Of a DNA stretch of 32,565 bases, positions 7,547-28,583 are shown piece by piece. The translations under genes and the position numbers were made by a program. Positions within the stretch are counted from its first letter, which is position 1; every line of letters begins with the position of its first letter. Source of the stretch: an uncultured Myxococcales bacterium. GTDB taxonomy: Bacteria > Myxococcota_A > UBA9042. Below the pieces are notes generated by a model, which did not search any database, was not told where the DNA came from, and was given only the letters and a program-made list of their open reading frames with translations. The stretch is from the NCBI GenBank assembly GCA_937910235.1, contig CALENB010000406.1, forward strand, positions 1 through 32,565, read 5' to 3'.

Positions 7547-7586
7547 CCCTGAGCCGAGATTTCCGCGGTCTCAGCCGGGCGTCGTG

Positions 7587-9784: not shown

Positions 9785-9815
9785 AGCATACGCCGGGTTA
9801 GGGTGAGGTTGTCAC
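9785..9815 (-). promoter_or_regulatory. candidate promoter for the AsnB-like gene
   Basis: On the minus strand GTGACA (9815-9810) and TATGCT (9790-9785) are separated by 19 bp, 158 bases before the AsnB-like ATG. It overlaps the 3' end of the VIT-VWA gene. It is the best sigma70-like pair in the window, but the spacer is slightly long. Confidence 0.35.
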
Positions 9816-12800
9816 GCCGTTACGCGTGCCGAACCAGGTCGCGTCCAGGTGGTGCCCGATCGCCGTGACGTTGGCTGCGGGGCTGGGTTCTTCCGCTTCC
9901 TCGCTGGACTCGGCGGCGTGGGCTGGGCGCAGAACCCCCGATTTCTCGGCCAGCGCGACGCGCAGGGCGCCCTCCATGGTCGCCGCCCACAACGCGCCGC
10001 CCTGCACATGGAGGCCACCCAGGTTGATGTGCACGCCGCCGCACGGTGTCGCTTCGAAGGTCGCCGCAGCCATCGCCGGAGACGTTGTCGCGGCGCTGAC
10101 GGGGTCGAGCCGGATCACCCCGCCGCGATAGGTGCCGACAAAGACGCTGCGACCGTCGGTGGCCAGCGCCGTGACCCAGTCGTCGCGCAGGTGGCCAGTG
10201 GCGACGCTGAAGCGCTGCACGTCAGTCTTGGTCCAGCGGTAGACCCCCCAGCTGCTCGCTAGCCAGATGGCGCCGTCATCGGTGCGGGTGAGATCCCACA
10301 CCGCGCGCACCGGCAGCCCCTGTTTGGCGCCGAGCGGGGTCACGTCGCCGTTGCGGCCCATCAGCGCCGCGCCGTGGGCGGTCCCCACGATCGCGCTGAT
10401 CGTGCTGGCCGCGTCATCGCGCCGCGGCGACACCCACACGCTGTGGACATCGCTGGCCGGGAGACCATCGGCCACGCCGTAAGATCGCGCGCGCCCCTCG
10501 GCGTCGATGCGCGACAGCCCGCGGGCGGTCGCTACCCACAGCGTGCCGTCAGGCCCCGCGGCGAGGCGGTTGATGCGTCGGTCGATCGGCGCGTCGGTGT
10601 CGTTTGTGCGGTGCTGGTCTCCGCTGGTTGGCAACCGTCGCCAAGCGCCGCCTAGTTGGCGCAGCCACAGCCCATCGGTGAGCGTGCCGGCCACGAGGCC
10701 GCCGCGCCAGCTTGTGAGCGCGGTGATGTCGCGTCCCACCGGCGGCACGTGCACGTCGCGCAGGTCACCGACGAGGCTCGCCCGCGGCAGCACGTCCAAC
10801 CGCCCAGCCCCCATGGCGACCACGGCGCCGGACTTGGCGAGCGTGAGCACCGCGCTGCGTTGATTGAGCGCCCTATCGATGGCGAAGAGCTCGATCCGCA
10901 GGGGCCACGTCGGGCGTTGCAGCGGCCGCCAATGACCAACAAAAACCCCCAAACGAAGGGCTTTCAGCGCCACAACTTGACCGTCTGGCAGCCGCACCTC
11001 GACCCCGCGCGCGTCACGGGCTGCCAGGGGTGCCAGCTGCCTGGCGCGGAGGATGAACACGCCACGGCGGCGCGGGTGGCGGCGCACGCTCAGGCGCAGC
11101 GACGGCGCGGTCGTGTCGATGGTGAGCCAGAGCTGCTGCTGGGTCACGGCCCCGCTCTGTTGCACCACGGTCACCATCAGTGGGTAGCGGCCCTCCGGCA
11201 CGGCCAAATCGACGAGAAAGCGGGCCACCCACGCTGCCGGGCCGTGGTCGCTGGCGGGCTCCCACTGCGCGTGCAGCACCTCGCCCCATGGCAAGGTGAC
11301 CGTGACGCTGCGCGCGTCGCGTGGCGCCGGTATGCGCACCTCGGGATCCCCAGGCTGGATGCGGTCGGGACTCACGGTCGGCCCGCTCGCCAAGGACTCT
11401 AGGTCGGCGCCGCTGACCGTTGGTCCGCCCGGATTCTCGGCCTGTTGGCGCCGTCGATGTGCGCGCTGTGCGCGTTGTGCGCTCGCCCGCTCGATGCCGT
11501 GGCGGGCGTACGCTTCTTCACTCTCCAACACCAGCAGCGCCGTGTGTTTACTGAGCACACCGTAGCCACGACTCACGGCGACCACGGCCTCCGCGGGGGC
11601 GCCAGCGGTCTGGAGCGCGGCCACCGCGGCGGCGCCAAAGCGCTGCCGCAGCCCCGTCGCCGGCCGTGGCGTCGCGAGCGGCACCATCAGCGGCACCATG
11701 AGTGGTGTAGCCCGGCCGGCCACCGAGACGGCGATGGCCTCCGGCAGCGGCTCACCGGCCGCGACCTCAAGCACAACCCACGGCCGCTGGCCCTCAAACA
11801 CCGTGCCAAGCTGCGCCGGCCGCACTGCGGCGGCCCCGAACGTCGTCGCCTCGCTGAGCGGACCGCCGCGCAGCGCGCCCACCGCGGCGAGGCGCACGTC
11901 ACGCCACCGCCCTTGGCTTGGCGCCGAGGCTACCGTGCGTCCGAGCGTCTCAGCGTCCTGCGCGCTGCGCGGCACAAAAACCCGGCCAGCGCTGGCGCGG
12001 GCGAGCGCCGTGAGCGTGTCCATCGCCGTGGAGCGCCCCACCGCTGCGCAGAAGACGGGGGCCGCCAAGCCCTGCGCCAACGTCACCAAGGCGGCGTCTT
12101 CCAGCGCGCCCCAGGTCGCGACGCCGTCGCTCACGAGCACCACCTGAGGGTGGCCTGCCGGCCCACTGGCGAGCAGCCCCTTGGCGCAGCCCAACGCCCC
12201 GCCCAGATCGCTGGCGCCGTCCGCTGTGACGCCGCCGAGCCACGCCAGGGCAGCGTCGATGTTGCGGTCGTCGGTGGCCAAAAACCCCGCAGGATCAGCG
12301 CGGCAGGTGATGTCCGTCGCCGCCACCACGAAGTGATCGGTCGCCGCGCCCGCCGCCAACACCGCGCGCACGATCTGCTGCTGCAACGCCGCCGTGCCCA
12401 AGCTGCTGCGCGACCGGTCGACCAGCACCACCACCGTGCGCGACCCGCTGACCTCCTGGCGCGGCGCCGCCGGCAGCTGCAACGCCGCGGCGACGTAGCG
12501 CTTGCCGTTCGGGCCGTCCGGCGCCTCCAGCCAGACGTCGTCGCCCTGGTCGCCAGCGCCAAACCGCAGCGTCACGACCCGCGTGCGGTCCACGCCGACC
12601 TCGTCAAACACGATCGCCCCGTCGGTGCGCAGCGTCACGCGGTCGATGGGCGTCGTGTCTTGCAGCTCGCCGCCGAGGCCATACCGCATCACCGTGCCAT
12701 CTGAGTCCGATCGCACCGGCACCAGCAGATCCAGCGCCAAGCGTTTGTCGGCCTGCGCCGGGATCGGAAACACCCGCAGCTCCAGCCGTCCGCCGCCCTG

Positions 12801-13337
12801 CCAGCGCAGCAGCGCCGGGTCGCGCATGCTGTCGACGATCTTGCGGTAGATGCGCTCCGCCTTGCGCCGACCGACGATCTCGCCCGCGATCCACTTGCCA
12901 TCGGTCTCCATCCGCAGCCCCGTCACGATCGCGCCCGGCGGCACCGCGAACCGGAAGGTGCCCTCGAGCTGCTGTGAGAGTGGGTTGTGAAAGGTGTGGG
13001 TGATGGTCAGCGCCGCCATCCCCGCGCTCGCCGCGGCGCTCACGTCGATGTGCCGCAGCTCCAAGGCCTCCCCGTCGGCCAGGATCAAGGCCCCAACCCC
13101 GCCGCTGATGGGGGTGGCCTTGTCGTCCTCGTCGTGGTGTTGCGTCGGTTGGTTGGCCGCCCCGCCATCGGGCGCGCCGCCGTCCGACCAAGCGCCGCCG
13201 TCGTCGCCACCGGCCAGCGCGCCGCTGGGGTCGACCTCACAGCCGACCAGCCCTACGCAGCCGAGCAGCGCGACGAGCGCCAACCCAGCCGTCGCTTTCG
13301 GCCCGGAAAACCAGCCGATTGTGTCGTGCGTGTTCAT
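9798..13337 (-). CDS. VIT-VWA lipoprotein with C-terminal regulator-type beta-propeller
   Basis: A 1179-residue predicted lipoprotein: hydrophobic ALVALLGCVGLVGC with lipobox cysteine 33, then an Asp/Gly-rich linker. Domains in order: VIT (about 82-210, with THTFHNPLSQQLEGTFRF and ERIYRKIVDSMRDPALL); VWA (about 298-470, MIDAS D307-R-S309-R-S311); a helical stretch with TALLVLESEEAYAR (599-612); an Ig-like region (about 665-830); and a propeller (about 865-1179) of seven DGxLWVAT-type blades like those of two-component sensor propellers (for example GPDGTLWVATARGLSRI). VIT-VWA proteins bind ligands at the surface in a metal-dependent way. SD GGAGG lies just before the ATG. The start overlaps the stop of the TPR-DUF2135 gene (ATGA), so they are coupled. 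Its VIT-VWA part is paralogous to that at 24696. The ligand is unknown. Confidence 0.88.
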   Translation of the reverse strand: MNTHDTIGWFSGPKATAGLALVALLGCVGLVGCEVDPSGALAGGDDGGAWSDGGAPDGGAANQPTQHHDEDDKATPISGGVGALILADGEALELRHIDVSAAASAGMAALTITHTFHNPLSQQLEGTFRFAVPPGAIVTGLRMETDGKWIAGEIVGRRKAERIYRKIVDSMRDPALLRWQGGGRLELRVFPIPAQADKRLALDLLVPVRSDSDGTVMRYGLGGELQDTTPIDRVTLRTDGAIVFDEVGVDRTRVVTLRFGAGDQGDDVWLEAPDGPNGKRYVAAALQLPAAPRQEVSGSRTVVVLVDRSRSSLGTAALQQQIVRAVLAAGAATDHFVVAATDITCRADPAGFLATDDRNIDAALAWLGGVTADGASDLGGALGCAKGLLASGPAGHPQVVLVSDGVATWGALEDAALVTLAQGLAAPVFCAAVGRSTAMDTLTALARASAGRVFVPRSAQDAETLGRTVASAPSQGRWRDVRLAAVGALRGGPLSEATTFGAAAVRPAQLGTVFEGQRPWVVLEVAAGEPLPEAIAVSVAGRATPLMVPLMVPLATPRPATGLRQRFGAAAVAALQTAGAPAEAVVAVSRGYGVLSKHTALLVLESEEAYARHGIERASAQRAQRAHRRRQQAENPGGPTVSGADLESLASGPTVSPDRIQPGDPEVRIPAPRDARSVTVTLPWGEVLHAQWEPASDHGPAAWVARFLVDLAVPEGRYPLMVTVVQQSGAVTQQQLWLTIDTTAPSLRLSVRRHPRRRGVFILRARQLAPLAARDARGVEVRLPDGQVVALKALRLGVFVGHWRPLQRPTWPLRIELFAIDRALNQRSAVLTLAKSGAVVAMGAGRLDVLPRASLVGDLRDVHVPPVGRDITALTSWRGGLVAGTLTDGLWLRQLGGAWRRLPTSGDQHRTNDTDAPIDRRINRLAAGPDGTLWVATARGLSRIDAEGRARSYGVADGLPASDVHSVWVSPRRDDAASTISAIVGTAHGAALMGRNGDVTPLGAKQGLPVRAVWDLTRTDDGAIWLASSWGVYRWTKTDVQRFSVATGHLRDDWVTALATDGRSVFVGTYRGGVIRLDPVSAATTSPAMAAATFEATPCGGVHINLGGLHVQGGALWAATMEGALRVALAEKSGVLRPAHAAESSEEAEEPSPAANVTAIGHHLDATWFGTRNGVTTSP

Positions 13338-14479
13338 TGTGCCCTCCGACCTGGAACGTGGATGTGAGCGACCACGACCCGCTGTTTGGGGGCGTAGAGT
13401 CGGTACGGCAGGATCTTGCGAACCTCCCGCGCCGTGCCTTCATGCAGCACGATCGCCACCTCGCCGCGCGCCTCTCGCAAGCCGCGCCGGTTGGTGCCGT
13501 AGTAGTGCACGACGACCTGATAGACGCCGGGCTGGGCGCGGGGCGCGGAGAACGTCTCGGGGCCGTAGCCCGTCGTTACGTCGCCAAAAAGCGCACCGCC
13601 GTTGCGGCCGCGTTTGTGTTTGTAGGAGATCTCTTCGCCGTCTGGTGTGATCACCCAGAGGTCAACATCGGAGCGGTCGGTGTCCCACGTCAGAAACACC
13701 TTGATGTCGCTGTCGGTGCCGCCGTCCACCGCCAGCTTGCGCCTCGCGGTCCGCAGCTGCTCAGCCTCCTGCACCTGCCCCGCCCCCGTCGCCCGCCGCG
13801 CCAGCTGCGCATAGACCTGCGCCAACCGCTGGCGCGCCGGCTCCGCGATGAGCTTGGGCGTCTTCTCATCAGCGGCGATGGCCTCAAAGCCGGCGCGGGC
13901 TTGTGCCAAGCGCCCTTGCCGATAGGCGCAGTCGGCGATCTCAAAACCCAGCCGCGCATCGTCGGGGTGCAGCGCGACCGCCCGCTGCAGCCGCGCACAC
14001 GCCGCGTCCAGCGCACCGGCTTGCTTCAGCGCCGACGCCAGCGCCCGATGCGCCGAGGCGTCGTTTGGCAGCAGCTCGACCACGGAAGACCAGCTCCGCA
14101 GCGCGGCGACCGGATCGCCCAGCGCGCTGTACAAGTCGCCGACGAGCCGCACCGCCAGGAGGTTGTAGGCGTCGTGATCGCGCCACGCCTGCGCCGCCGT
14201 CAGGGCCGCCCGGGGCTGGCCGGCGTCGCGCAAGGCGATGACCAAGTCGAAGCGCACCTGCCGATCCCGCGGCGCCTCCGCCACCTGTCGCCTCAACTTG
14301 GCGATTCGGTCGGCGCCCCCAGCTTTTCGCTCGGGTTCGCTGGCTTTGGCCTCGATGCGCCAGCCGCGGGCCGGTGTGATCTCCGACTGCGCCGCGACCG
14401 GCTGCGCCGCCAGCCCAAACAACGCCACCATCATCCACAGACCGCCGCGTCCCGGCGCTGTCGTGTGTCCCGTCCCCAT
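13334..14479 (-). CDS. periplasmic TPR protein with C-terminal DUF2135 domain
   Basis: A 381-residue exported protein. The signal peptide MMVALFGLAAQPVAA is probably cleaved at A30/Q31, with no lipobox. Residues about 73-235 form TPR-like helical repeats (VRFDLVIALRDAGQPRAAL, AHRALASALKQAGALDAAC, RLGFEIADCAYRQGRLAQA). Residues about 258-375 are a DUF2135 domain (YfaP type), with FLTWDTDRSDVDLWVITPDG and GDVTTGYGPETF followed by VYQVVVHYYG. The domain is a beta-sandwich of unknown activity, often seen near VIT or alpha-2-macroglobulin proteins. A G-rich ribosome site precedes the ATG by about 5 bases. The stop overlaps the VIT-VWA start by 4 bp. The same TPR-DUF2135 arrangement forms the C-terminus of the protein at 24696-28583. 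A candidate operator lies upstream at 14539-14550. Confidence 0.88.
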   Translation of the reverse strand: MGTGHTTAPGRGGLWMMVALFGLAAQPVAAQSEITPARGWRIEAKASEPERKAGGADRIAKLRRQVAEAPRDRQVRFDLVIALRDAGQPRAALTAAQAWRDHDAYNLLAVRLVGDLYSALGDPVAALRSWSSVVELLPNDASAHRALASALKQAGALDAACARLQRAVALHPDDARLGFEIADCAYRQGRLAQARAGFEAIAADEKTPKLIAEPARQRLAQVYAQLARRATGAGQVQEAEQLRTARRKLAVDGGTDSDIKVFLTWDTDRSDVDLWVITPDGEEISYKHKRGRNGGALFGDVTTGYGPETFSAPRAQPGVYQVVVHYYGTNRRGLREARGEVAIVLHEGTAREVRKILPYRLYAPKQRVVVAHIHVPGRRAQ

Positions 14480-14538
14480 GTCGCCCCCCTCCCACGAGCG
14501 TCAGACTCATGGCGTCGCTATGCGACAGAGGGTCAGCA

Positions 14539-14550
14539 CCCCACGTGGGG
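14539..14550. promoter_or_regulatory. 12-bp perfect palindrome before the TPR-DUF2135 gene
   Basis: The sequence ccccacgtgggg lies 60-71 bases before the TPR-DUF2135 ATG, in the 155-bp spacer after the GT2 stop. On the minus strand TTGACG (14574-14569) lies about 18 bp upstream of it, so the palindrome would overlap a -10 region if that hexamer were a -35 box. An operator role is inferred. Confidence 0.3.
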
Positions 14551-14634
14551 CGATTCATTCCGGGGTTGGATCGTCAAGACGCTGGTTTCACAGGGTTTGC
14601 GCGTGGATTGCACAACTTCTGCACATCTTCCGCC

Positions 14635-15639
14635 TCAGGGCAGGTTCCGCCGGCTGCGCACAAAGTAGATCGCGCGGCCTTGGCTCTCGTAATACGTCCG
14701 CATCACCAGCTCGGCGAGCAGGCCGAACACGAGCAGCTGCAACCCCACCGTGGCAAAGAAGATGCCCAGCATGAAGATGGGTTGGTCCTTCACGAACTCG
14801 CCGTCCGCGAACTTGCGCCAGCCGGCCCAGCAGATGCAGCCGACGCTGCCCATCCACGCCGCGGCGGTGAGCCGGCCAAAGAAATACAGCGGTTTGGTGG
14901 CGTAGCTCGCCAGAAAATGCACCGTCAGCAGATCGAGCAGCACCCGAAAGGTCTTGATCACCGAGTATTTGCTGCGTCCCCACTGCCGCGCGTGGTGGCG
15001 CACCTGCATCTCGCTGATGCGACCGCCGGCGAGGTGCGCAAACACGGGCAGGTAGCGGTGCATCTCGCCGTAGAGTCGAATATCCGCCAGCAGATCGGCC
15101 CGGAACGCCTTGAGGGTGCAACCGTAGTCATGCAGTCGCACGCCGGTCACCCGGCCGATCAGCCAGTTGCCCACCCGGGATGGCAGGTTCACGAGCAGCG
15201 CCGAGTCTTGGCGGTCATGACGCCAGCCGGCCACCACGTCGTAGCCTTCGTCGAGCCGCGCCAGCATCGCCGGGATGTCCTGCGGATCGTTTTGCAGGTC
15301 CGCGTCCAGCGCCACCACCGCCAACCCGCGGGCGGCCTCGAAACCAGCCGCCAAGGCCGCGGTCTGGCCGAAATTGCGGCGAAAATGGATGACCTTCACC
15401 CGGGGCTCGGCGTCGGCGAGCGCGTCCAGAACGGCGGCGGAGTCGTCCACGCTGCCGTCGTTCACGAAGATGGTCTCCCAGGTGCCGCCCAGCGCGGTGA
15501 GCACGGGCAGCAGGGCTTGCCAGAAGGGCGGCAGGCTCTCTTCCTCATCGAATACGGGGACGACGACGCTGAGATCGGGCGGCGGTGAGCTCGTGTGGTC
15601 GGCGGCGGTGTTTGGAGGGTTGGCGGCTGTGCTGCTCAT
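14635..15639 (-). CDS. polyprenyl-phosphate glycosyltransferase, family 2 (DPM1/GtrB/ArnC-like)
   Basis: A 334-residue GT-A enzyme that attaches a sugar from a nucleotide donor to polyprenyl phosphate at the cytoplasmic face. Motifs: LSVVVPVFDEEESLP (23-37), VNDGSVDDS (59-67), RNFGQTAALAAGF (88-100), the metal and nucleotide motif LDADLQNDPQD (111-121) and WGRSKYS (220-226). Two hydrophobic segments follow (about 235-275 and 285-315), as in GtrB-type enzymes. The start is set at MSSTAANPP; the frame extends to 15789, but that extra stretch is non-conserved and would cross the radical SAM start region. Its product is the donor type used by the GT39 enzyme at 7546-5837. It heads the minus-strand group and is divergent from the radical SAM gene with a 148-bp shared spacer. 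The sugar is unknown. Confidence 0.88.
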   Translation of the reverse strand: MSSTAANPPNTAADHTSSPPPDLSVVVPVFDEEESLPPFWQALLPVLTALGGTWETIFVNDGSVDDSAAVLDALADAEPRVKVIHFRRNFGQTAALAAGFEAARGLAVVALDADLQNDPQDIPAMLARLDEGYDVVAGWRHDRQDSALLVNLPSRVGNWLIGRVTGVRLHDYGCTLKAFRADLLADIRLYGEMHRYLPVFAHLAGGRISEMQVRHHARQWGRSKYSVIKTFRVLLDLLTVHFLASYATKPLYFFGRLTAAAWMGSVGCICWAGWRKFADGEFVKDQPIFMLGIFFATVGLQLLVFGLLAELVMRTYYESQGRAIYFVRSRRNLP

Positions 15640-15699
15640 GGCGGCAGTGTGTCTCGGCGAGACCACAAGCGCCAGAAGCCGGCGTTTAGTTGTTCGAAC

Positions 15700-15741
15700 T
15701 TGACGTACATCAGGTCGCCTGCAGGCGCCATGGGCTAGCAT
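15700..15741. promoter_or_regulatory. divergent promoter/operator candidate between GT2 and radical SAM genes
   Basis: The 148-bp spacer 15640-15787 must drive both directions. It contains TTGACG (15700-15705), a perfect 12-bp palindrome CGCCTGCAGGCG (15716-15727) and TAGCAT (15736-15741), a -10 candidate 46 bases before the radical SAM ATG. TTGACG is too far (30 bp) to pair with TAGCAT. The palindrome would overlap the -35 region of TAGCAT, fitting an operator. Tentative. Confidence 0.3.
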
Positions 15742-15787
15742 GGCACGAACGAGTCGGCCGCAGTCGCGCCGTCGTCGGAGGCCCATC

Positions 15788-16756
15788 ATGACCGTCGCGA
15801 ACCCTGAGACAACCGGCGCCGAGGCGCCGATCGCTGCGTCGAAGCGGCTCGACCTGAAGCTGAGCTTTCAGTGCAACAACCGCTGCGTCTTCTGCGTGCA
15901 GGGCGACAAGCGCGACACCGAGCCCTGCCGAACGCCGGAGAACGTGCGCGATCTGCTGGCCGAGCGGCGCGCGACCTGCGATAGCGTTGTTTTTACGGGC
16001 GGAGAGGTGACGCTGCGGGAAGATCTGGTCGCCCAAGTGCAGCACGCCAAGGCGCTGGGTTATCGCTCGATCCAGATCCAAACCAACGGCCGCCGCATGA
16101 GCTACGCGCCTTATCTGGAGGCGCTGATCGAGGCCGGCGCGACCGAGCTGGCCCCCGCGCTGCACGGCGCCGATGCCGCCACCCACGACGCACTGACCCA
16201 AGCGCGCGGCTCGTTTCGACAGACCGTCAAAGGCATCCGCCACGCCCAGCGCCGAGGCCTGCCGGTGGTGCTCAACAGCGTGATTGTGCAGAGCAACGTC
16301 GCCCAGCTGCCGGCCATGGTGCGGCTCTTTATCAGCCTCGGCGTGCGGCAGAGTCAGTTCGCGTTTGTGCACGCGCTGGGCACCGCTGAGCAGCTTTTTG
16401 ACACGGTGGTGCCACGCTATGGCGACGTCATGCCCTACCTGCGCGAGGCCCTGCTGACGGGCGAACGCGCCGGCATGGTGATGATGGCAGAGGCCGTGCC
16501 GCTGTGTCTGATGCACGGGCTGGAGCGGTTTGTGTCGGAGGCCTACATGCCCGAGACGACCATCATCGACAGCAAGCTGACCATCGAGAGCTACGCCGAC
16601 TGGCGCCACGCCGAGGGCAAAGCCCATGGGCCGCCTTGTGAGTCGTGCACTTGGCGGCTGCACTGTGAGGGGCCGTGGCGCGAATACCCCGCAAAATTCG
16701 GCTGGCAGGCGTTCCGGCCTCGCACCGACGCCCCACCTGCGATCGTGACGACGTAG
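15788..16756 (+). CDS. radical SAM enzyme with C-terminal cysteine cluster (SPASM-like)
   Basis: A 322-residue radical S-adenosylmethionine enzyme. The 4Fe-4S motif is C29-NNR-C33-VF-C36 (CX3CX2C), followed by the SAM-binding FTGGEVTL (69-76) and a TIM-barrel body with SIQIQTNGRRM and VVLNSVIVQSN. A second cluster, C284-ES-C287-TWRLH-C293, near the C-terminus is typical of SPASM or twitch extensions that carry an auxiliary Fe-S cluster. ATG 15788 was chosen over ATG 15740 because GGAGG (15777-15781) lies 6 bases ahead. It is followed after 63 bp by an AsnB-like gene. No precursor peptide gene was found nearby, so the substrate (peptide, sugar or lipid) is open. Class assignment is firm; reaction is unknown. 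Confidence 0.9.
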   Translation: MTVANPETTGAEAPIAASKRLDLKLSFQCNNRCVFCVQGDKRDTEPCRTPENVRDLLAERRATCDSVVFTGGEVTLREDLVAQVQHAKALGYRSIQIQTNGRRMSYAPYLEALIEAGATELAPALHGADAATHDALTQARGSFRQTVKGIRHAQRRGLPVVLNSVIVQSNVAQLPAMVRLFISLGVRQSQFAFVHALGTAEQLFDTVVPRYGDVMPYLREALLTGERAGMVMMAEAVPLCLMHGLERFVSEAYMPETTIIDSKLTIESYADWRHAEGKAHGPPCESCTWRLHCEGPWREYPAKFGWQAFRPRTDAPPAIVTT

Positions 16757-16765
16757 CGCACATGG

Positions 16766-16771
16766 TAGGCT
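16766..16771 (+). promoter_or_regulatory. candidate -10 element for the second AsnB-like gene
   Basis: TAGGCT in CATGGTAGGCTGCC lies 48 bases before the ATG at 16820, between the radical SAM stop and the AsnB-like start. A GTGACG is found 15 bp upstream. It may only add to read-through from the radical SAM promoter. Confidence 0.22.
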
Positions 16772-16819
16772 GCCGCCACGCCTGAACGAGCCCCTGCTCG
16801 CGGGTGAGGAGTCAGCGCG

Positions 16820-18709
16820 ATGTGTGGCATCGCCGGGGTCATCGGCCTCGGATCGAACCTAGCCCCCGACGACCTCGCCCTGACGCGTGACATGGCCGCG
16901 CGTCTGCATCATCGCGGCCCGGATTCGCGCGGTTTTTTCGACCACGACCGCGTCAGCCTCGGCAACACCCGCCTCAACGTGATGGACCTGTCCGCCGCCG
17001 CCGACCTGCCGATGCGCAGCCCGGACGGTCAGGTGGTCATCGCCTACAACGGCGAGGTCACCAACTTCAAGGAGCTGCGGCGCGACTACGGCCTCGACCG
17101 CACGTGGACCTTTCAGACCAGCGGCGACACGGAGGTGCTGCTCGCCCTCTACGACCGCTTTGGCGTCGATTTCCTCGGCAAACTCACCGGCATGTTCGCC
17201 TTTTGTCTGGTCGATCTGCGGCTGCAGAAAGCCTGGTTGGTCCGGGACTTCTTCGGCATCCGGCCGCTGTTTTTCATGCAGCACCAAGATCGCCTCTACT
17301 TCGGCTCGGAGATCAAAGCCCTCACCGGCGCGCCGGGCTTCTCGACCGACCTGGACCACGAAGGGCTGTGGGACTTTTTTACGCTGGCCTACATCCCCGG
17401 CGACCACACCCCGTTCCGCTGCGTGCGCGAGCTGCAGGGCAGTGAGCTCATTGAGATCGATCTGACCACGGGACACTGGGATCGCCGGCCCTACTACCAG
17501 CTGCAGTATCGCCCCGATGAGTCGTGGACCGAGCGAGACGCCGCCGACGCGCTGTTTTGGCACATGCGCGACAGCGTCCGCCGTAACTTGGTCTCCGACG
17601 CGCGGGTCGGCCTGACGCTGTCTGGCGGCTACGACACCAGCACCATCCTCGCCCTGACGCGCGATCTCATGCCTGACGCGGAGATCCACACCTGGTCCAT
17701 CCGCATGGGCGAGGCCAGCTACGACGAGAGCGCCTACCAGCAGCTCATGGCCAAACACAGCCGCACCGAGCACCACGAGATCACCGTCGGCCCGCGCGAT
17801 GTCATCGACGCGTTTGTCGAACACATGACCTTCCTCGACGAACCCTCCGGCAACGGCGCCGCGGTGCCGAGCTACATCCTGGCGCGCGAGGCGACCAAGC
17901 TCGACACGGTGCTGCTCTCGGGCGAAGGCGGCGACGAGACCTTCAACGCCTACGAGACCCACGTCGCCAGCAAGGTTCGGCGTCTGTACCGCCGCCATAT
18001 CCCCGGATTTGCGCGCCGCGCGGCCCATTTTACCGCGCATAACCTGCCCGTGCGCCACAACAAGCTGAGCTTTGATTTCCTCGCTAAGCGCTTCACCGAA
18101 GGCGCGGAGCGGGGCGTGGTCGACTCGCATCTGTACTGGCGGCACACGTTTCCCGAGTCGATCAAAGCCGAGCTGATGCCCGATCTCGCGGCGACGCGGC
18201 CGACGTGGCAGGGCGTGCAGTCGATCTACGACGAGCTGGCGGGTTGCGATCCGCTGGACCGGTTGAGCGCGCTGGATATCCGCACGTATTTCATCGCTGA
18301 TCTGATGGTGAAAAACGACCGGACGTTTATGGCGCACAGCATCGAGGGGCGCTTTCCGTACATGGACCGGCTGCTGCTCGAGTTCGCCCAGACCATCCCG
18401 CCGCGGCTGCGGATCAAGGGGCTGCGGCGGCGGTACATGCAGAAACAAGCGATGAAGCGGTTGATGCCGCCGGCGATTCAGCAGCGGGGCAACTTCGGTC
18501 TGGAGATGCCGCACAGCACGTGGTTTGCGACGGAGATGCGGGAGTTTGCCGAGAGCTGGCTAACGCGAGAGCGGATCGCGGCGCTGGGGTTTATTGACCC
18601 GGACGTGGCGCTGCGGCTGTGGCGGGAGCATCTGGAGCGGAAGGTGGATCATGGCCGTGGGTTGTGGAGTCTGCTGAACCTGGTGGTTTGGCATGATTTG
18701 AATGGGTAG
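16820..18709 (+). CDS. AsnB-type amidotransferase, second paralogue, variant PP-loop
   Basis: A 629-residue class II glutamine amidotransferase/asparagine synthetase-like enzyme. Glutaminase residues are intact: Cys2, LHHRGPDSRG, NTRLNV (R51), AYNGEVTN (N77) and SGDTE (D103). The ATP-pyrophosphatase loop reads LSGGYDTSTIL: the usual SGGxDSS is SGG-Y271-D272-T273-S274, with Thr where Ser is normal. The GEGGDETFNAYETH motif follows. It probably amidates a carboxylate using glutamine and ATP; with a radical SAM gene ahead and a flippase-like gene behind, a specialised envelope or peptide substrate is as likely as aspartate. GAGGAG (16806-16811) lies 8 bases before the ATG. It aligns only loosely with the enzyme at 9626-7587, so the two are divergent paralogues rather than a recent duplication. 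Confidence 0.86.
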   Translation: MCGIAGVIGLGSNLAPDDLALTRDMAARLHHRGPDSRGFFDHDRVSLGNTRLNVMDLSAAADLPMRSPDGQVVIAYNGEVTNFKELRRDYGLDRTWTFQTSGDTEVLLALYDRFGVDFLGKLTGMFAFCLVDLRLQKAWLVRDFFGIRPLFFMQHQDRLYFGSEIKALTGAPGFSTDLDHEGLWDFFTLAYIPGDHTPFRCVRELQGSELIEIDLTTGHWDRRPYYQLQYRPDESWTERDAADALFWHMRDSVRRNLVSDARVGLTLSGGYDTSTILALTRDLMPDAEIHTWSIRMGEASYDESAYQQLMAKHSRTEHHEITVGPRDVIDAFVEHMTFLDEPSGNGAAVPSYILAREATKLDTVLLSGEGGDETFNAYETHVASKVRRLYRRHIPGFARRAAHFTAHNLPVRHNKLSFDFLAKRFTEGAERGVVDSHLYWRHTFPESIKAELMPDLAATRPTWQGVQSIYDELAGCDPLDRLSALDIRTYFIADLMVKNDRTFMAHSIEGRFPYMDRLLLEFAQTIPPRLRIKGLRRRYMQKQAMKRLMPPAIQQRGNFGLEMPHSTWFATEMREFAESWLTRERIAALGFIDPDVALRLWREHLERKVDHGRGLWSLLNLVVWHDLNG

Positions 18710-18778
18710 GGGATCGCGTTTCACCGTCCCTGTCGCCGTCCCCTTGCGACGCCCTCGCATCCCGCCAATGCTGACGCC

Positions 18779-19780
18779 ATGGCGACGACCTCCCAGACCC
18801 CATCGATGCCGCCAGCCCCAACCGCGACCGCGTTTCAGCGTCTCCAGCGCGCGTTGCCGCTGCTGATCTCCGCGGCGTTGCTGGCTGTCGTGCTCTGGCA
18901 TTTCGACGGTTGGGGGCTGCTCAAACGCCTAGATTCCGGGCTATTCGCGCTCGCGCTGGGCCTCGCGTTGCTGCTCGACACGGGGGTGGGCGCCTTCAAG
19001 TGGTGGTGGATTCTGCGGCGGCTGCGGCAGCCTGTGTCCTTCGGCGCTGTCTGGCGGGTGTGGACGGGCCTGCTGCCGCTGACGTTTTTTACGCCTTTTC
19101 AGTCTGGTCACGCGCTCTATCCGCTCGCGCTGTCGCGGGCGACGGGGGTGGATCTAGTGGTGGCGACCGAGTCGGTGATCTACGACAAAGGCCTGAGCCT
19201 CGTCAGCACGTTCGCGCTCGTCGCGGTGGGGCAGGGGCTGCTGCCGGTTGGGCATCCGTTGGTGCAGCCGTGGATCTTGGCGGTGGCGCTGGTCGGTGTC
19301 GGCGCTTGGTTTCTCGATCGACCGATTGTGGCGCTGCTGTCCCGTGTCGGGCAGCGCAGCCCGCGCTTTGCAAGATTGGCGCGGCGTTCGCAGCTGCTAC
19401 GCCATCCCATCCCTTTGTTGGACAAGGTCGGGCTGCTGCTGACGGGCATGGTCTACCAGACCTCCGATAGCCTCTCGATCTGGCTCGGCGTCGCCGCCCT
19501 GGGCCTTGAGCTGCCCGCAAACCTCGCGTTTGGGGCCTATCCGCTCGCGCTGCTGCTCAGCTACGCGCCCGTGACGTTCGCCGGGTTTGGGCTCCGCGAG
19601 CCCGCCGCCGCCTACGCCCTTGGCACCGCGCTCACCTGGGATCAGGGTGTGCTGGCTGGCATCCTCGTCGATGGCCTGGAGTACGTCGCGCCCGCGTTGT
19701 TTGGGTTGACGTGCCTGCCGTGGTTGCTGCGCCGGCTGGCCAGACCGGTCACCGAGGCGCGCGTCACCCGCGGTCCTTGA
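18779..19780 (+). CDS. LPG-synthase-TM/flippase-like integral membrane protein
   Basis: A 333-residue polytopic protein of the lysylphosphatidylglycerol-synthase TM domain family (UPF0104/YbhN-like; AglD-like members act in glycan pathways). Visible are the first helix LLISAALLAVVLWHFDGWG, AFKWWWILRRLRQPVSF, FFTPFQSGHALYPLALSRATG, and the late motif APVTFAGFGLREPAAAYAL, which matches the conserved G.G.RE block. It lacks the soluble aminoacyl-transfer domain of full MprF, so it is the membrane part only. It may flip or handle a lipid-linked intermediate. The start lacks a clear ribosome site; 69 bp separate it from the AsnB-like gene, so operon expression is likely. The neighbours suggest export or processing of the product of the two upstream enzymes. 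Confidence 0.82.
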   Translation: MATTSQTPSMPPAPTATAFQRLQRALPLLISAALLAVVLWHFDGWGLLKRLDSGLFALALGLALLLDTGVGAFKWWWILRRLRQPVSFGAVWRVWTGLLPLTFFTPFQSGHALYPLALSRATGVDLVVATESVIYDKGLSLVSTFALVAVGQGLLPVGHPLVQPWILAVALVGVGAWFLDRPIVALLSRVGQRSPRFARLARRSQLLRHPIPLLDKVGLLLTGMVYQTSDSLSIWLGVAALGLELPANLAFGAYPLALLLSYAPVTFAGFGLREPAAAYALGTALTWDQGVLAGILVDGLEYVAPALFGLTCLPWLLRRLARPVTEARVTRGP

Positions 19781-19839
19781 GTCCGGCGCCGGTCCGTGGC
19801 ATGGGTTCGGGGCACCCCCCTCCGGCCTCGGATCTTCCT

Positions 19840-21297
19840 ATGTCGACTCCAAAATCCACCCTGGCTACGCTGAAGTGGCCGCTGCTGATGATGGCCCTGC
19901 TGCTGATTCCGACCCTGGCTTGGCAGGACGTCGCCACGCAGCTGGGTGGTCAGCTGAGCGGCGCCCTCCCGATCCTGCGCAACGCGCTGTCGAGCGCGCT
20001 GTGGTTGACGGGCGCGTGGCTGTTGATCCGTGTCACGGACGTCGTGTTCTGGGACCGCATCGTCGCCCCACGCCTCGGCGGCAAGGTGCCTCGCCTGCTC
20101 AAGGACGTCTTCGCGACGATGATCTTGCTGGTCGCCGTCACCACGATCCTCTCAGTCGTCTTCAAGCTTGATGTGACGGGCCTGTGGGCGACCTCGGGCG
20201 TCGTCGGCTTGGTGCTCGGACTCGCCCTGCAGTCTATGATTGCCGATGTCTTCGGCGGAATCGCGATCAACGTCGACCGGCCCTTCCGCATCGGCGACTG
20301 GGTGCAGCTGCATCATCGGCGCGACGTCTTCGTCGGGCAGATCGTCGAGACCAGCTGGCGCGCCACTCGCCTGCGCCGGGTTGACGGCACGATGGTGTCG
20401 CTGCCCAACGGTCAGATCGCCGTGTACCCGGTCGTGAACCTCTCGTACCCGCGCAAAGAGAGCCGCTTCTCCCTCTCGTTTCACCTCGATTTTGGTGTGC
20501 CGTCCGACCGCGCCATGCGCATTTTGCATGCCGGCGTGAAGAGCGCGGAGGGCGTGCTGAGCGATCCAGCGCCGAAGGTTCGCATCAATGGCGCCAGTAA
20601 ATCCGGGGTGGAATACGAGATCCGCTACTGGCTCCTGCCCGGCGAGGTGTCGCCGAGCAAGGGCCGCCACCGGGTCATGGAGTCCGTGCTGCGCCATCTG
20701 CACAAGGCCGGCCTGACGCTCGCCTACGAGAAGCAAGACATCTTCTACGCCGCGATGCCGCAGCGGCAGCTCGACACGCGCGACGACCGCGAGGCCATCA
20801 TCGGGCGGGTGGAGCTGTTCGCCGATCTGGAGCCGGAGGAGCTGAGCCAGCTGGCCCAAAGCGTACATTTGGCGCGGGTAGGCCACGGTGGTGACGTGGT
20901 GAAAGGCGGCGACGACGGCGACTCCATGTACATCGTGGTCGAGGGCCTGCTGGAGGTCTTTGTGCCGAGCGGGACGGGCGATTCGGAGATCATGGTCGGC
21001 CGGATCGAGCCCGGGGAGTTCTTCGGCGAGATGAGCCTGCTGACGGGCGAGCCCAGGTCGGCGACGGTGCGCGCCGCGACGGACGTGGTGGCGTTTGAGG
21101 TGCGGAAGGCTGATCTGGAGCCGTTGTTGCGGGCTCGCCACGCGCTGGCGAGCGAGATTATCGCGAAGGTGGCGGAGCGGAAGGTGCGCAGTCAGGCGCG
21201 GACGGATGCGTTTGCGGCGGGGAGTAAGGAGGTGGAGGCGGAGGCCTCGACGCTGGCGGCGCAGCTGCTGGGGAAGGTGAGGCGGCTGTTTTTTTGA
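19840..21297 (+). CDS. MscS-family channel fused to a cyclic-nucleotide-binding domain
   Basis: A 485-residue inner-membrane protein. Residues about 10-110 contain three hydrophobic helices, then the MscS pore and beta domain (about 112-205: GVVGLVLGLALQSMIADVF, then GGIAINVDRPFRIGDWVQL). Residues about 323-430 form a cNMP-binding domain with a full phosphate-binding cassette, GEFFGEMSLLTGEPRSATV, including E397 and R406, which contact the cyclic phosphate and ribose. This architecture matches the bacterial cyclic-nucleotide-gated MscS-like channels, which are thought to be ligand-gated rather than tension-gated. ATG 19801 in the same frame is an alternative start (13 residues longer). It sits 59 bp after the flippase-like gene, on the same strand. 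A probable terminator overlaps its 3' end. Confidence 0.88.
   Translation: MSTPKSTLATLKWPLLMMALLLIPTLAWQDVATQLGGQLSGALPILRNALSSALWLTGAWLLIRVTDVVFWDRIVAPRLGGKVPRLLKDVFATMILLVAVTTILSVVFKLDVTGLWATSGVVGLVLGLALQSMIADVFGGIAINVDRPFRIGDWVQLHHRRDVFVGQIVETSWRATRLRRVDGTMVSLPNGQIAVYPVVNLSYPRKESRFSLSFHLDFGVPSDRAMRILHAGVKSAEGVLSDPAPKVRINGASKSGVEYEIRYWLLPGEVSPSKGRHRVMESVLRHLHKAGLTLAYEKQDIFYAAMPQRQLDTRDDREAIIGRVELFADLEPEELSQLAQSVHLARVGHGGDVVKGGDDGDSMYIVVEGLLEVFVPSGTGDSEIMVGRIEPGEFFGEMSLLTGEPRSATVRAATDVVAFEVRKADLEPLLRARHALASEIIAKVAERKVRSQARTDAFAAGSKEVEAEASTLAAQLLGKVRRLFF
21262..21295 (+). terminator. probable intrinsic terminator overlapping the MscS-cNMP stop
   Basis: CAGCTGC (21262-21268) can pair with GCGGCTG (21282-21288), a 7-bp stem with one G-U pair and a 13-base loop, followed at once by seven T (21289-21295). 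The last T is the first base of the TGA stop. It would end the plus-strand radical SAM to MscS transcript. Confidence 0.45.
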
Positions 21298-21301
21298 GTG
21301 A

Positions 21302-21353: not shown

Positions 21354-21450
21354 TCGCGCCCGCGCAGCATCATCGTGTGCCAGCGCACGACGGAGTTCTT
21401 CGTATTCTAGCAGTGTTGAATCGAGATGCTGTTGGGTCGCTCGAGCGGAA

Positions 21451-21768: not shown

Positions 21769-21823
21769 ACGGCGCGGGCGAGAACTCATGGTCCTGGCAC
21801 GCCGAACACGCCACTGCAGGTCG

Positions 21824-22606: not shown

Positions 22607-22665
22607 CGGTTACTTACCTAGGTGGGAGGGTTGGTGTGGAACATAGGCGCGGAGAGGCTGTTTCC

Positions 22666-24336: not shown

Positions 24337-24497
24337 CTGGAGGCTCCGGGCCCGAGGCGGGCTGGGCTGGGTGACTGACTGTGCCGGTCGCGATCTGCTG
24401 GAACGCAGTGTCGCACGAAGCGTTCCGGTGCGCTGCGACCAGCCCTCCGCACCCCAGCGGCCCGGCAGTTCGCGGCCGCCGTCCGGCCCTCAGATGA

Positions 24498-24510
24498 AGT
24501 GCCAGGCACC
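24498..24510. repeat. REP-like palindrome, copy 2
   Basis: agtgccaggcacc shares the 11-bp core gtgccaggcac (5-bp arms, 1-base centre) and the preceding gatga(a) with copy 1 at 21341-21353. It sits in the divergent spacer upstream of the giant VIT-VWA gene. Confidence 0.55.
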
Positions 24511-24594
24511 TAGCGAGCCTGCAGGAGGTGGAGCTGGACACGGACCAACCGGCTGACGCCTGCCAGCCGCTTCCGTCGTTCGCACGTCATGGGT

Positions 24595-24600
24595 TACCCT
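24595..24600 (+). promoter_or_regulatory. candidate -10 element for the giant VIT-VWA gene
   Basis: TACCCT within ATGGGTTACCCTGCGC lies 95 bases before the ATG at 24696. It resembles the other TAnnCT-type hexamers in the window (1795, 9785, 16766). No convincing -35 box is visible. Confidence 0.25.
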
Positions 24601-24695
24601 GCGCGCGCACTGTCCCGCACAAGTCCGACCGAGATCAGACCGACGCGCCTCGCCGTGCGTCAACACGGGTCCCCGCTCGTTCGCCAGGAGCCCGC

Positions 24696-27600
24696 ATGCA
24701 CGCCCCACTCGCTGACCGCCCACGCCGCCTCACACAACTGAGCCTCGTCGCGCTGAGCCTCGTCGCGCTGAGCCTCGTCGCGCTGAGCCTCGTCGCGCTG
24801 CCGCTCGCTGGCTGTGGTGAGCAGGCCGTCGCCGTGCCGCTCTTTGACGCCACCGCGTTCTACGGCCCCGCGAAGGTCGCCGACATCGCGTTCGCGGGCG
24901 GCGGCGCACGAGTCGCGCCGCCCATGAGCCTCACCGCCTCAGACGGCACCGGGCTGCGCCTCACCCAGCTGCGGGCGCAGGCCGTCGTCGAGGGGCCGCT
25001 CGCGTTCACGGAGCTGCACCTGACCTTCCATAACCCCGAGAATCGGCAGCGCGAGGGCCGCTTCTCCATCACCTTGCCGCCGAGCGCCGCCGTGAATCGC
25101 TTCGCCATGTACACCGACAAATGGATGGAGGGCGAGGTCGTCGAGAAGCAGCAGGCACGGCGGATCTACGAAGACTATCTGCACCGCAAGCAGGATCCGG
25201 CGCTGCTGGAGACCGGGGCGGGCAACACGTTTCGGGCGCGGGTCTTCCCCATCCCTGCCGGCGGTGACAAGAAGCTGATCGTGAGTTTCACCACCGAGCT
25301 GGCCCGGGCCTCAGACCCGTACGTGCTCCCCCTCGCGGGGCTCGGTGAGCTGAAAGACCTGGAGATCACGGTCGCGGTTCACCACCAGGTCAAGGCGCAG
25401 GCGTATCGCGGCCCCCGCGTCGTGCAGGTGCAGCGCCAGGCCTTCACACCCGCGCGTGACCTCGTCGTGCACCCCCAGGCGGCCAACGGACCCAGCGCGC
25501 TGCGCAATGGCGATCTGGTGGCGACGCGCATCACCCTGCCTACCAACCGAGAGAAGCAGCGTTTCAGCGAGGTGGTGGTGCTGTTTGACACCTCGGCGTC
25601 TGAGGCCGTGAACTTCAAAGGCCGCGTCACCCGGCTCGAGCAGCTGCTCACGTTCGTGGCGCAACACGGCGCGCAGCAGGTGACGGTGCTGGCCTTCGAT
25701 CAGGTCGGCGAGCCCGTGTTTTCGGGTCCGCCAGCCAAGTGGGGCGAGGCGGAGCGGACCAAGCTGCTCGAGCGCGGCGCCCTGGGTGCGTCCGATTGGG
25801 GCGCCGCGCTGAGCAGGGCCGGCAAGTTGGCGAAGGGTCGCAAGGACGTGCGTGTGATCGCCTTTGGCAACGGTGTCGCCACGGCGGGGCTGACGGCGGT
25901 CGATGAGCTCAAGCGGGTCGCGTTGTCTCTGAACGCCGTGGGCGTGCAGCGTCTCGACACCGTGGAGATGGCCGCGCAGCGCGATATGGCGAGCCTGCGG
26001 GCCATCGCGACGGCCGGGTTGCCGCACGATGGCGTGCACGTGCAGCTCGGCACGAAGCCGAAGCCAGGCGAGTTCGACGCCTTGCTCGCGGCGACGTTTC
26101 GGCCGATTCGAGTCGCGGTGAAAGGCGCCGCCTGGGTCTGGCCGCAGGCGCTCAAAGGCCTCAAAGGCGGCGACAGCGCCGTGGTTTTTGCGCAACACGA
26201 GGGGGACGACGTCGAGGTGGAGCTGAGCGGTGGGGCGACGCAGCGCGTCACGGTGAGGCCGCAGCTGGCCGCGCGCGCGCTGCTGCAGACGGCCTGGGTC
26301 AGCGCGCGCATCAAGCGGCTGCTGCACGACAGCGCGTTTGGCGATCCAGACATGCGACCGATGGCAAAGCAGCAGGCCTTGAAGCTCTCGATCAAGCATC
26401 GCGTGCTCTGCGAGCTGACCGCGCTGCTGGTGCTGGAGTCCGAGCGCGAGTACGCCCGCTACAACCTCAAACAGACGGCGCTCGCGGACATCTTGACGGT
26501 GACGCCAGACCTAGAGGTGGCCGCGCTGGATCGGGCTCACGCCTACGAGTCGGAGCGGCGCAGGTTCGTGCCGCGGGTCGATCCGGTCGAGGTGAGCTGG
26601 CTCGACAAGCTGAAGGCCACGTTCGCGTCGAAGTCCGATGAGCAGGCGACCGCGGCCGTGGCGCCGAGCGCCGGTTCGGATCGGGCGGTGGAAGCAGCCG
26701 CGACGCCGAGGAGCGTCGCAGCGCAGCGCGCGGAGATTGAGACGGAGACGGCGAAAGACCACGCCGACGATGGCGTGGAGGGCGAGCGCGCCGCCGCCGC
26801 GATGCCGCAAGCCCGAGGCGGAGCGCCGTCGCCGTCGCCGGGAGCGCACCCGACACCCAGAGACATGCCTCCACAAGCTGAGTCCAACGTGAAAGAGAAG
26901 AAGCGTGCCCGACGACAGGACGCGCCGTCGGCCGAGGCGCGTCCCAACAACGACGTGCGAATGGCGGAGGAACGAAAACCAACAAGCCAAGGACCTGCGG
27001 GCGCCCTCGTCGGCGGGTCGGGTGGCGGTGGCAGCGCTGGCGCCAAAGGCGTCGGCCTCAGCAGCCGCACAGGCCCCGGCCCGCACAACGGCGACCTCTT
27101 CTTCGACAAGAACGCCGCCAAGCGCAAGGTCAGCGTGTCCGTAGCGGTCGCCGGCCTGGACGGAGCCAAAGGGCCGCGGACCGCGGTCGCCCGCGTGCTC
27201 GCCCGCAGAAACGGCAGTGTTCGGCGCTGCTATGAGCTGTACGTACGCCGCAATCCCAACGCCAACGGTGCTGTGAAGGTGATCGTGGCGTTCACGGTGG
27301 GCACCGCGGGCACGATGACCAGTGTGGACGTGAGAAGCGCGCCGCCTGAGCTCGGCGCCTGCATCAAGGCGCAGTTTCTCCGAATCCGAGGCTTGCCGCT
27401 CCTCCCTCGACCACAGGGTTTCAGTCAGCGGTACAACTTCCAGAGCTCCGGGCCAAGCCGTGAACGCGAGCTGCCTGGGGCCATGGTGCAGCGGTCTACC
27501 ACCACCGAGCTCGCCGCCAAGAAGGCGCAAGCGCGCGCCAATCGTGAGCGCGCACGGCTGCGCAAACAGCGCCGCGCCCTCGCAGTACAAGCCGCCAAGC

Positions 27601-28583
27601 TGGCCAAGGTGCGCCTGCAGCTCGAGACCGAGAACGCAGCCAAGGAGGCCATCGGGCGCGGCAAACGTGAGCTCGAGGCGCTGCGCGCAGGCATCGCCAA
27701 CACCCCGAATATCAAGGGTCCCTACGCCAAGATTCGCAGCGCCATCGACAGCAAGAAGCTCAAGACGGCCCTTCGCACAGCCTGGGACTGGCGCCGCAAC
27801 GACCCCGCCAACGTGATGGCGCTGGTCGCGCTGGGTGACGCGTACTTAGCCTTGGAGGAGCCCAAACAAGCGGCGCGGGCCTATGGCTCGCTCATTGACC
27901 TGTTCCCCTCCCGCGCCGATCTGCGACGGTTCGCCGGCAACTTGCTCGACACGACCGACGTCGCCGGCCATCGCCTCGCCATTGACACGTACCGCGCCGC
28001 CGTCAAGCAGCGTCCAGACCATCCGGCCGGGTATCACATGTTGGCCATGACCTTGGCGCAGGACGGTCAGCTTCAGGCCGCGATCGACACGCTGGAGGCT
28101 GGCATCAAGGCCAAGCGCCGGTCGGGGAACTTCAGGGGTGTCGATCGCATCCTCAACGATGACCTGCGCATGGTGCGACAAGCGCGCGACGGCGGTGGCG
28201 GCGTCCCCCCGAATATTCGCTTCGTGCTGACGTGGGAGACCGACGCCAACGACGTCGATTTTCACATCTTCGACAGCGATTTTGAGCACGCCTCGTTTCG
28301 GCAGCGCCAGCTCAAGAGCGGCGGCGAGCTGTTCGCTGACATCACCACGGGCTACGGGCCAGAGTGCTTTCGTATCGACAACCCGACGCAGTACCCCTAC
28401 CAACTTCTAGCCCACTATTACGCCATGGGGCCGATGGGGTATGGCATGGGGCGGCTGCAGGTCGTTCGTTACGACGGCAAAAAGGGGTTTGGCGTCGAGA
28501 GTCGACCCTTTGTGATCATGCAGAACCGGTCCTACGTCGACATGGGCGAGGTGACGGCGAAGACGGCGCCCGTGAATCATTAG
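24696..28583 (+). CDS. giant lipoprotein: VIT, VWA, AgmX/PglI-type, TPR and DUF2135 domains
   Basis: A 1295-residue predicted lipoprotein. The signal sequence is built from a repeated LSLVA unit and ends in the lipobox LAGC (Cys40). Domains in order: VIT (about 76-205, with LTFHNPENRQREGRFSI and ARRIYEDYLHRKQDPALLE); VWA (about 290-450, MIDAS D298-T-S300-A-S302); TALLVLESEREYAR (575-588); a low-complexity linker (about 640-800); an AgmX/PglI C-terminal-type domain (about 800-912, RRCYELYVRRNP with C845 and C889); a charged coiled coil (about 935-1000); TPRs (about 1005-1140); and DUF2135 (about 1172-1290, FVLTWETDANDVDFHIF and ADITTGYGPECF). AGGAG five bases before ATG fixes the start. This fuses the two modules that are separate coupled genes at 14479-9798. 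Likely an outer-membrane or periplasmic adhesion or assembly factor; its ligand is unknown. The SGNH gene starts 7 bases after it. Confidence 0.88.
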   Translation: MHAPLADRPRRLTQLSLVALSLVALSLVALSLVALPLAGCGEQAVAVPLFDATAFYGPAKVADIAFAGGGARVAPPMSLTASDGTGLRLTQLRAQAVVEGPLAFTELHLTFHNPENRQREGRFSITLPPSAAVNRFAMYTDKWMEGEVVEKQQARRIYEDYLHRKQDPALLETGAGNTFRARVFPIPAGGDKKLIVSFTTELARASDPYVLPLAGLGELKDLEITVAVHHQVKAQAYRGPRVVQVQRQAFTPARDLVVHPQAANGPSALRNGDLVATRITLPTNREKQRFSEVVVLFDTSASEAVNFKGRVTRLEQLLTFVAQHGAQQVTVLAFDQVGEPVFSGPPAKWGEAERTKLLERGALGASDWGAALSRAGKLAKGRKDVRVIAFGNGVATAGLTAVDELKRVALSLNAVGVQRLDTVEMAAQRDMASLRAIATAGLPHDGVHVQLGTKPKPGEFDALLAATFRPIRVAVKGAAWVWPQALKGLKGGDSAVVFAQHEGDDVEVELSGGATQRVTVRPQLAARALLQTAWVSARIKRLLHDSAFGDPDMRPMAKQQALKLSIKHRVLCELTALLVLESEREYARYNLKQTALADILTVTPDLEVAALDRAHAYESERRRFVPRVDPVEVSWLDKLKATFASKSDEQATAAVAPSAGSDRAVEAAATPRSVAAQRAEIETETAKDHADDGVEGERAAAAMPQARGGAPSPSPGAHPTPRDMPPQAESNVKEKKRARRQDAPSAEARPNNDVRMAEERKPTSQGPAGALVGGSGGGGSAGAKGVGLSSRTGPGPHNGDLFFDKNAAKRKVSVSVAVAGLDGAKGPRTAVARVLARRNGSVRRCYELYVRRNPNANGAVKVIVAFTVGTAGTMTSVDVRSAPPELGACIKAQFLRIRGLPLLPRPQGFSQRYNFQSSGPSRERELPGAMVQRSTTTELAAKKAQARANRERARLRKQRRALAVQAAKLAKVRLQLETENAAKEAIGRGKRELEALRAGIANTPNIKGPYAKIRSAIDSKKLKTALRTAWDWRRNDPANVMALVALGDAYLALEEPKQAARAYGSLIDLFPSRADLRRFAGNLLDTTDVAGHRLAIDTYRAAVKQRPDHPAGYHMLAMTLAQDGQLQAAIDTLEAGIKAKRRSGNFRGVDRILNDDLRMVRQARDGGGGVPPNIRFVLTWETDANDVDFHIFDSDFEHASFRQRQLKSGGELFADITTGYGPECFRIDNPTQYPYQLLAHYYAMGPMGYGMGRLQVVRYDGKKGFGVESRPFVIMQNRSYVDMGEVTAKTAPVNH
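24738..24797 (+). repeat. four exact tandem copies of a 15-bp unit inside the signal peptide
   Basis: The unit ctgagcctcgtcgcg is repeated at 24738-24752, 24753-24767, 24768-24782 and 24783-24797, giving LSLVA four times in the hydrophobic core of the lipoprotein signal peptide. The period is a multiple of three, so copy-number change would lengthen or shorten the hydrophobic core by 5 residues without a frameshift. Confidence 0.95.

Follow-up and report, generated by a model that had tools for sequence, protein, structure and literature searches.

Split and fused VIT-VWA and TPR-DUF2135 modules in a Myxococcota genome and their relation to a three-gene operon

The window analysed here is a whole stretch of 32,565 nucleotides (nt), contig CALENB010000406.1 of an uncultured Myxococcales bacterium, and it holds two loci in which a VIT-VWA module is associated with a module of tetratricopeptide repeats (TPR) and a DUF2135 domain. 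At the first locus the modules are divided between two adjoining genes, gene A (product P0002) and a gene termed B+C (product P0001), and at the second they are fused in a single protein, P0003. An initial annotation had given the coordinates of these genes, the ATGA overlap between the first two and the reversed module order in the protein at 24696-28583, all of which are borne out by the open reading frames (ORFs) and their translations. It had also recognised VIT-VWA in P0001, correctly, but the immunoglobulin (Ig)-like region and the seven-bladed beta-propeller of the same protein were absent from it. The features are listed below, with lengths and residues in amino acids (aa).

13334..14479, minus strand: gene A, secreted TPR-DUF2135 protein P0002, 381 aa (ORF and translation, Pfam TPR and DUF2135, AlphaFold2 (AF2) model)
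13736..14314, minus strand: TPR superhelix of gene A, residues about 56-248 (Pfam, AF2, Foldseek)
13355..13723, minus strand: DUF2135 beta-sandwich of gene A, residues about 253-375, with TWDTDxxDVDLWV and TTGYGPE motifs
13334..13337, minus strand: ATGA, 4-nt overlap of the gene A stop and the gene B start, also in sister genome G020
9798..13337, minus strand: gene B+C, P0001, lipoprotein VIT-VWA-Ig fused to a beta-propeller, 1179 aa, lipobox LVGC
12732..13055, minus strand: VIT domain of P0001, residues 95-202 (Pfam VIT, 3.2e-18)
11913..12440, minus strand: VWA domain of P0001, residues about 300-475, with DRSRS, GASDL and SDG resembling a metal ion-dependent adhesion site (MIDAS)
10818..11375, minus strand: Ig-like region of P0001, residues 655-840, starting with PDRIQPGDPEVRIPAP, the operon marker (alignment A2, phylum search)
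9804..10727, minus strand: seven-bladed beta-propeller of P0001, residues about 871-1178, matching the C-terminal half of the stand-alone gene C
24696..28583, plus strand: fused paralog P0003, a lipoprotein with VIT-VWA, linker, AgmX-like domain, TPR and DUF2135, 1295 aa, lipobox LAGC
24963..25277, plus strand: VIT domain of P0003, residues 90-194, with VWA downstream and GNG instead of SDG at the last MIDAS position
27180..27386, plus strand: AgmX/PglI C-terminal-like domain of P0003, residues 829-897, sub-threshold (NCBIfam NF033768, 35.3 bits, cut-off 40)
27729..28559, plus strand: TPR (residues about 1012-1143) and DUF2135 (about 1166-1288) of P0003

The Pfam VIT model, with a cut-off of 26.5 bits, scored 66.3 bits on P0001 and 78.1 bits on P0003. 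VWA was sub-threshold in both, with a VWA fold predicted in P0001. The MIDAS pattern DxSxS...[ST]...D is complete in P0001 and its DxSxS part is preserved in nearly all sequences compared; the last Asp is replaced by Asn in P0003 and in its nearest relative (L081). The end of the VIT-VWA module carries the motif TALLVLESE as a family-wide mark. Pfam DUF2135 (PF09906) scored 25.1 bits on P0002 against a cut-off of 22 and missed the domain in P0003, and Reg_prop reached 18.4 bits on the propeller of P0001, under its cut-off of 20.4. The linker of P0003 (window 26000-27400), which lies between the modules and holds the AgmX/PglI C-terminal-like domain, is long and of low complexity.

The proposal, made earlier from shared motifs, that each half of P0003 is homologous to one of the split genes stood up to alignment, and the homology of both module pairs reaches far past two short motifs. 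The VIT-VWA halves of P0001 and P0003 aligned by BLASTP over 559 columns (E=4e-25) and the TPR-DUF2135 halves of P0002 and P0003 over 314 columns (E=1e-27). Hidden Markov models (HMMs) built without P0003 and its paralog agreed, finding P0003 at 5e-65 (VIT-VWA) and 4e-23 (DUF2135), and none of 200 shuffled sequences scored.

Short-frame matches to DUF2135 led to loci in which three genes follow one another: TPR-DUF2135 (A), VIT-VWA-Ig (B) and a separate beta-propeller (C). Many short-frame matches lay at contig ends and were left out of the count of split forms. With the Ig region as bait (alignment A2, signature PDxLQPGDPEVxIPAPxDA) matches were found in 51 of the 379 genomes searched, the strong ones being A-B-C operons. 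About 17 such loci were recovered, nearly all in Myxococcota and spread over at least six family codes, with hosts that include Plesiocystis pacifica, two strains of Enhygromyxa salina, Labilithrix, a Kofleriaceae bin and a bin labelled Vicinamibacteria. The operon of this last bin (L138, JAICEW010000195.1) falls inside the Myxococcota clade, so that either horizontal transfer or a misbinned contig may be involved. The order A-B-C is constant wherever one contig holds all three genes, at the A-B and B-C junctions the next gene mostly has an in-frame start that lies 4 nt or 1 nt within the stop codon of the gene before it, and the A-B overlap is kept across families. No conserved neighbours of the operon were found, only kinase-like ORFs variable in place and strand. 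Two of the loci (L091, L092) have in gene B an extra N-terminal region before VIT that looks FecR-like by eye.

In the window's genus B and C form the one ORF that encodes P0001, as they also do in the sister genome G020 (59% identity), a second species of that genus. Of C, P0001 retains only what corresponds to the C-terminal half of its stand-alone form; the N-terminal half has been lost in the genus. Both the split and the fused forms were found on searching genomes, as the initial annotation had suggested, and the supposed split pair of that annotation proves to be a three-gene operon in partly fused form, whose third component it missed. Two natural fusions therefore exist, B+C in the window's genus and VIT-VWA with TPR-DUF2135 in the paralogous lineages, and together they link all three components.

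The fused form is the commoner one. In the 284 genomes of the window's phylum that were surveyed most strong DUF2135 matches sit in frames of about 950-1450 aa, and VIT-VWA came first and DUF2135 last in all 32 examined ORFs labelled fused. Beside its one split locus the window's own genome carries the fused VIT-VWA-TPR-DUF2135 gene in four copies, on contigs C406, C486, C451 and C71. Outside the phylum the fused form was met in Deinococcota, Bacteroidota and Sphingomonas, again with VIT-VWA leading; it occurs in Deinococcus, Aureibacter and Sphingomonas plasmids, annotated as 'VIT domain-containing protein'. In two apparent splits of other genomes that keep the same module order (L081, L094) the sequence is otherwise collinear and only the reading frame differs between the modules; they were judged to be frameshifts and were not counted.

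Phylogenetic analysis gave matching histories for the two modules. The operon proteins (16 rows in each tree) form one clade in the DUF2135 tree, with support of 97/90, and one clade in the VIT-VWA tree, with support of 100; both trees divide the fused proteins into the same major groups, and P0003 goes with the C71 protein in each. When VIT-VWA modules lacking DUF2135 were added, all sampled DUF2135-partnered modules, fused or split, lay on one side of a branch supported at 99% by the Shimodaira-Hasegawa-like approximate likelihood ratio test (SH-aLRT). The VIT-VWA trees, which took in operon and fused proteins, the B-C pairs of another lineage described below and the added DUF2135-less modules, were made by a quick method with no bootstrap and no inferred root, and for this reason a single origin of the DUF2135-partnered VIT-VWA modules is the simplest reading and not a proof. 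The two loci of the window had been described as split and fused versions of one pair, a description that does not hold; they are ancient paralogous lineages from deeply separated clades, coexisting in one genome, which has three more fused paralogs. Both module trees rule out that one form arose from the other by recent splitting or fusion inside the genus.

The AF2 model of P0002 (predicted local distance difference test, pLDDT, 83) has TPR helices followed by a beta-sandwich. Foldseek matched it to TPR proteins (E 1.9e-9) and, among the matches listed, to TPR-type proteins only, which leaves the DUF2135 fold without an assigned relative. Comparison of the DUF2135 sequence with solved structures gave nothing significant, the best match being a subtilisin-like protease at E 0.46. 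The model of P0001 (pLDDT 78) has seven propeller blades, counted from its strand list, besides VIT, VWA and Ig-like strands. The best structural match of P0001 was the heavy chain ITIH1 (PDB 6fpy), with which it has in common the VIT-VWA hybrid fold and a MIDAS-like motif (Foldseek E 5.1e-25, TM 0.53 by target length, about 597 aligned columns). Unlike ITIH1, P0001 is a lipoprotein with a bacterial C-terminal Ig region and propeller and has no DPHF cleavage/ester motif; this motif was absent from all six proteins checked, and the family is consequently not filed as a member of the inter-alpha-inhibitor heavy chains. For the propeller the best match among bacterial proteins was the periplasmic heparin-sensing domain of BT4663 (PDB 4a2l; Foldseek E 1e-11), which likewise combines a Reg_prop-type beta-propeller with an Ig-like partner domain. 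It differs in that the P0001 chain has no histidine kinase, no kinase domain being found in it by Pfam or in the predicted structure, and in that the propeller component of P0001 is partly lost. The marine sortase target family TIGR03788 has the VIT-VWA architecture in common and is matched in part; the scores were 58.6 and 56.1 bits against a cut-off of 551.65, and no LPxTG-like sorting motif was found in the proteins checked. The PADLOC anti-phage models gave no families for P0001-P0003.

By sequence pattern a lipobox was read on gene B in most loci with a readable N-terminus, and signal-like N-termini were read on A and C. Given these secretion signals an envelope or extracellular place is likely, and to that extent the suggestion in the initial annotation of an undescribed envelope system is upheld; its fused plan is already in databases.

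On the best reading both loci of the window belong to a single ancient family whose VIT-VWA module works with TPR-DUF2135 outside the cytoplasm. A would be secreted as a soluble TPR-DUF2135 protein. B, probably the membrane-anchored scaffold, would be a lipoprotein whose VIT-VWA head is inter-alpha-inhibitor-like and whose stalk is formed by Ig, and C would be a secreted beta-propeller carried by the stalk of B. The VIT-VWA face of B would dock the DUF2135 sandwich of A, in cis in the fused paralogs and in trans in the operon, and the most likely target of the MIDAS-bearing VWA and the propeller would be a glycan or protein on a surface, so that the complex would serve adhesion or ligand capture. 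Best supported is the claim of a joint action of A, B and C outside the cytoplasm, B being the anchored scaffold, and their separate, neighbouring products probably assemble into one extracellular complex. Taken as a whole, a partnership of VIT-VWA and TPR-DUF2135 outside the cytoplasm, with B scaffolding A and C in a secreted complex that probably binds surfaces, is fairly probable. The functional tie of the modules, claimed from the outset, is supported by the matching clades, the 99% branch and the conserved A-B overlap; the physical complex claimed with it is a prediction, as are the contact, its interface, the outer-membrane anchoring and the binding function. The structural analogies suggest a surface-binding role. 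It is conceivable, though we regard it as doubtful, that this is an undescribed Myxococcota surface machine, in which a metal-dependent inter-alpha-inhibitor-like lipoprotein head recognises conserved loops of DUF2135, the acidic and the GYGPE ones, and displays the propeller to an extracellular glycan or protein. If true, large secreted binding proteins would have in DUF2135 a docking domain of general use.

Several observations weigh against the main reading of the window. VIT was found in 187 of the 284 genomes (E<=1e-4) and DUF2135 in 87 (E<=1e-10), so that the dependence is mainly that of TPR-DUF2135 on VIT-VWA, which is much the commoner and functions without DUF2135. The initial annotation had named modules found apart as grounds for doubt, and for VIT-VWA, very often found without DUF2135, this is partly the case. 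At loci L157-L169 a related B-C pair, VIT-VWA-Ig and then a propeller gene, occurs without A, which is therefore not essential to B-C; this pair has the Ig region and propeller in common with the operon and a VIT-VWA of a different lineage. At one of these loci, L157, the pair has additional N-terminal repeats resembling a PQQ-type propeller. The multi-domain model of P0001 has a predicted template modelling score (pTM) of 0.60, and domain placement is hence unsure. Metal-dependent binding may not be general, as P0003 is without one MIDAS aspartate, and the reputation of ITIH1 and BT4663 for binding glycosaminoglycans is only suggestive.

The main rival, which we consider unlikely, is periplasmic protein capture of the kind attributed to the Mag complex of Pseudomonas aeruginosa, in which DUF2135, as a general adaptor, would dock on large multi-domain secreted proteins (alpha-2-macroglobulin in enterobacteria, VIT-VWA in the present family) and the whole would trap proteases or other proteins. 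The DUF2135 domain of P0002 shares 42% identity with E. coli YfaP over 102 aa, and in the enterobacterial operon DUF1175 - alpha-2-macroglobulin - DUF2300 - DUF2135, as here, DUF2135 is encoded beside a large secreted protein. MagF, the last mag operon product, binds the macroglobulin MagD 1:1 (PMC5764988). However, YfaP has no TPR and its operon partner is a macroglobulin rather than VIT-VWA, and MagF, judged from operon order, is a putative DUF2135 protein. No macroglobulin gene is conserved beside the A-B-C operon, although such genes occur elsewhere in the window's genome, and DUF1175 and DUF2138 are absent from that genome.

It is no more probable that the components share regulation or a pathway without protein contact, their overlaps and fusions reflecting dosage and operon economy. 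Gene overlap is common in compact GC-rich operons and the occurrence of B-C without A fits this explanation, which must nevertheless account for A+B and B+C each being fused somewhere, for a fixed order held over phylum-scale distances and for module clades that match. Still less probable is independent domain shuffling, whereby DUF2135 joined unrelated VIT-VWA proteins several times and the split and fused forms say nothing of each other; VIT-VWA is very frequent and is joined to many different partners, deep branches separate the fused lineages and DUF2135-like domains occur in other chains too, yet the DUF2135-partnered modules lie on one side of the 99% branch and the same clades return in the DUF2135 tree. 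That a frameshift or an assembly artefact has made a fused gene look split, as the same-order cases with no fixed junction might suggest, can be dismissed almost outright, and is already refuted for the window locus by its reversed order, two intact ORFs and a two-gene arrangement conserved in 15 other loci.

Each module was known already, and the fused plan stands in databases with no function assigned. P0003 follows the same plan, VIT-VWA - linker - TPR region - DUF2135, as the 'VIT domain-containing proteins' of Deinococcus sp. QL22 (WP_249395064), Aureibacter (WP_309942093) and Sphingomonas (WP_347093660) and differs from them in its extra AgmX-like stretch, whereas in the operon form DUF2135 belongs to a gene of its own further upstream, and an Ig region and a propeller are present in addition. 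No paper naming DUF2135 was found in open-access full text and no open-access paper on bacterial VIT-DUF2135 proteins; nor were the A-B-C operon, the Ig signature, the matching clades and the complementary fusions found in the open-access literature searched. DUF2135, a domain of unknown function, occurs even in E. coli, and the fusion, the operon and the matching clades together offer VIT-VWA as a concrete, testable partner for it. The three-gene form provides separate soluble parts, with the natural A+B and B+C fusions as guides.

Glycan-type genes flank the split locus (window 5837-9626 and 14635-19780), encoding two asparagine-synthase-like proteins, a PMT-type and a GT2 glycosyltransferase, a radical SAM protein and a flippase-like protein. 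Three of their products (P0010, P0012, P0017) have genes adjoining gene A in G020 too, and not near the operon elsewhere. A MscS-type mechanosensitive channel with a C-terminal cyclic-nucleotide-binding-like domain is encoded at window 19711-21297. Among the fused paralogs, that of contig C71 has a stretch like the P0003 linker, seen by eye, and that of C451 (L011:1035-7516; L083, L084, L085) has a conserved protein of ~411 aa downstream, followed in L083 and L085 by a VWA lipoprotein-like gene, which makes a second small conserved cluster around the family.

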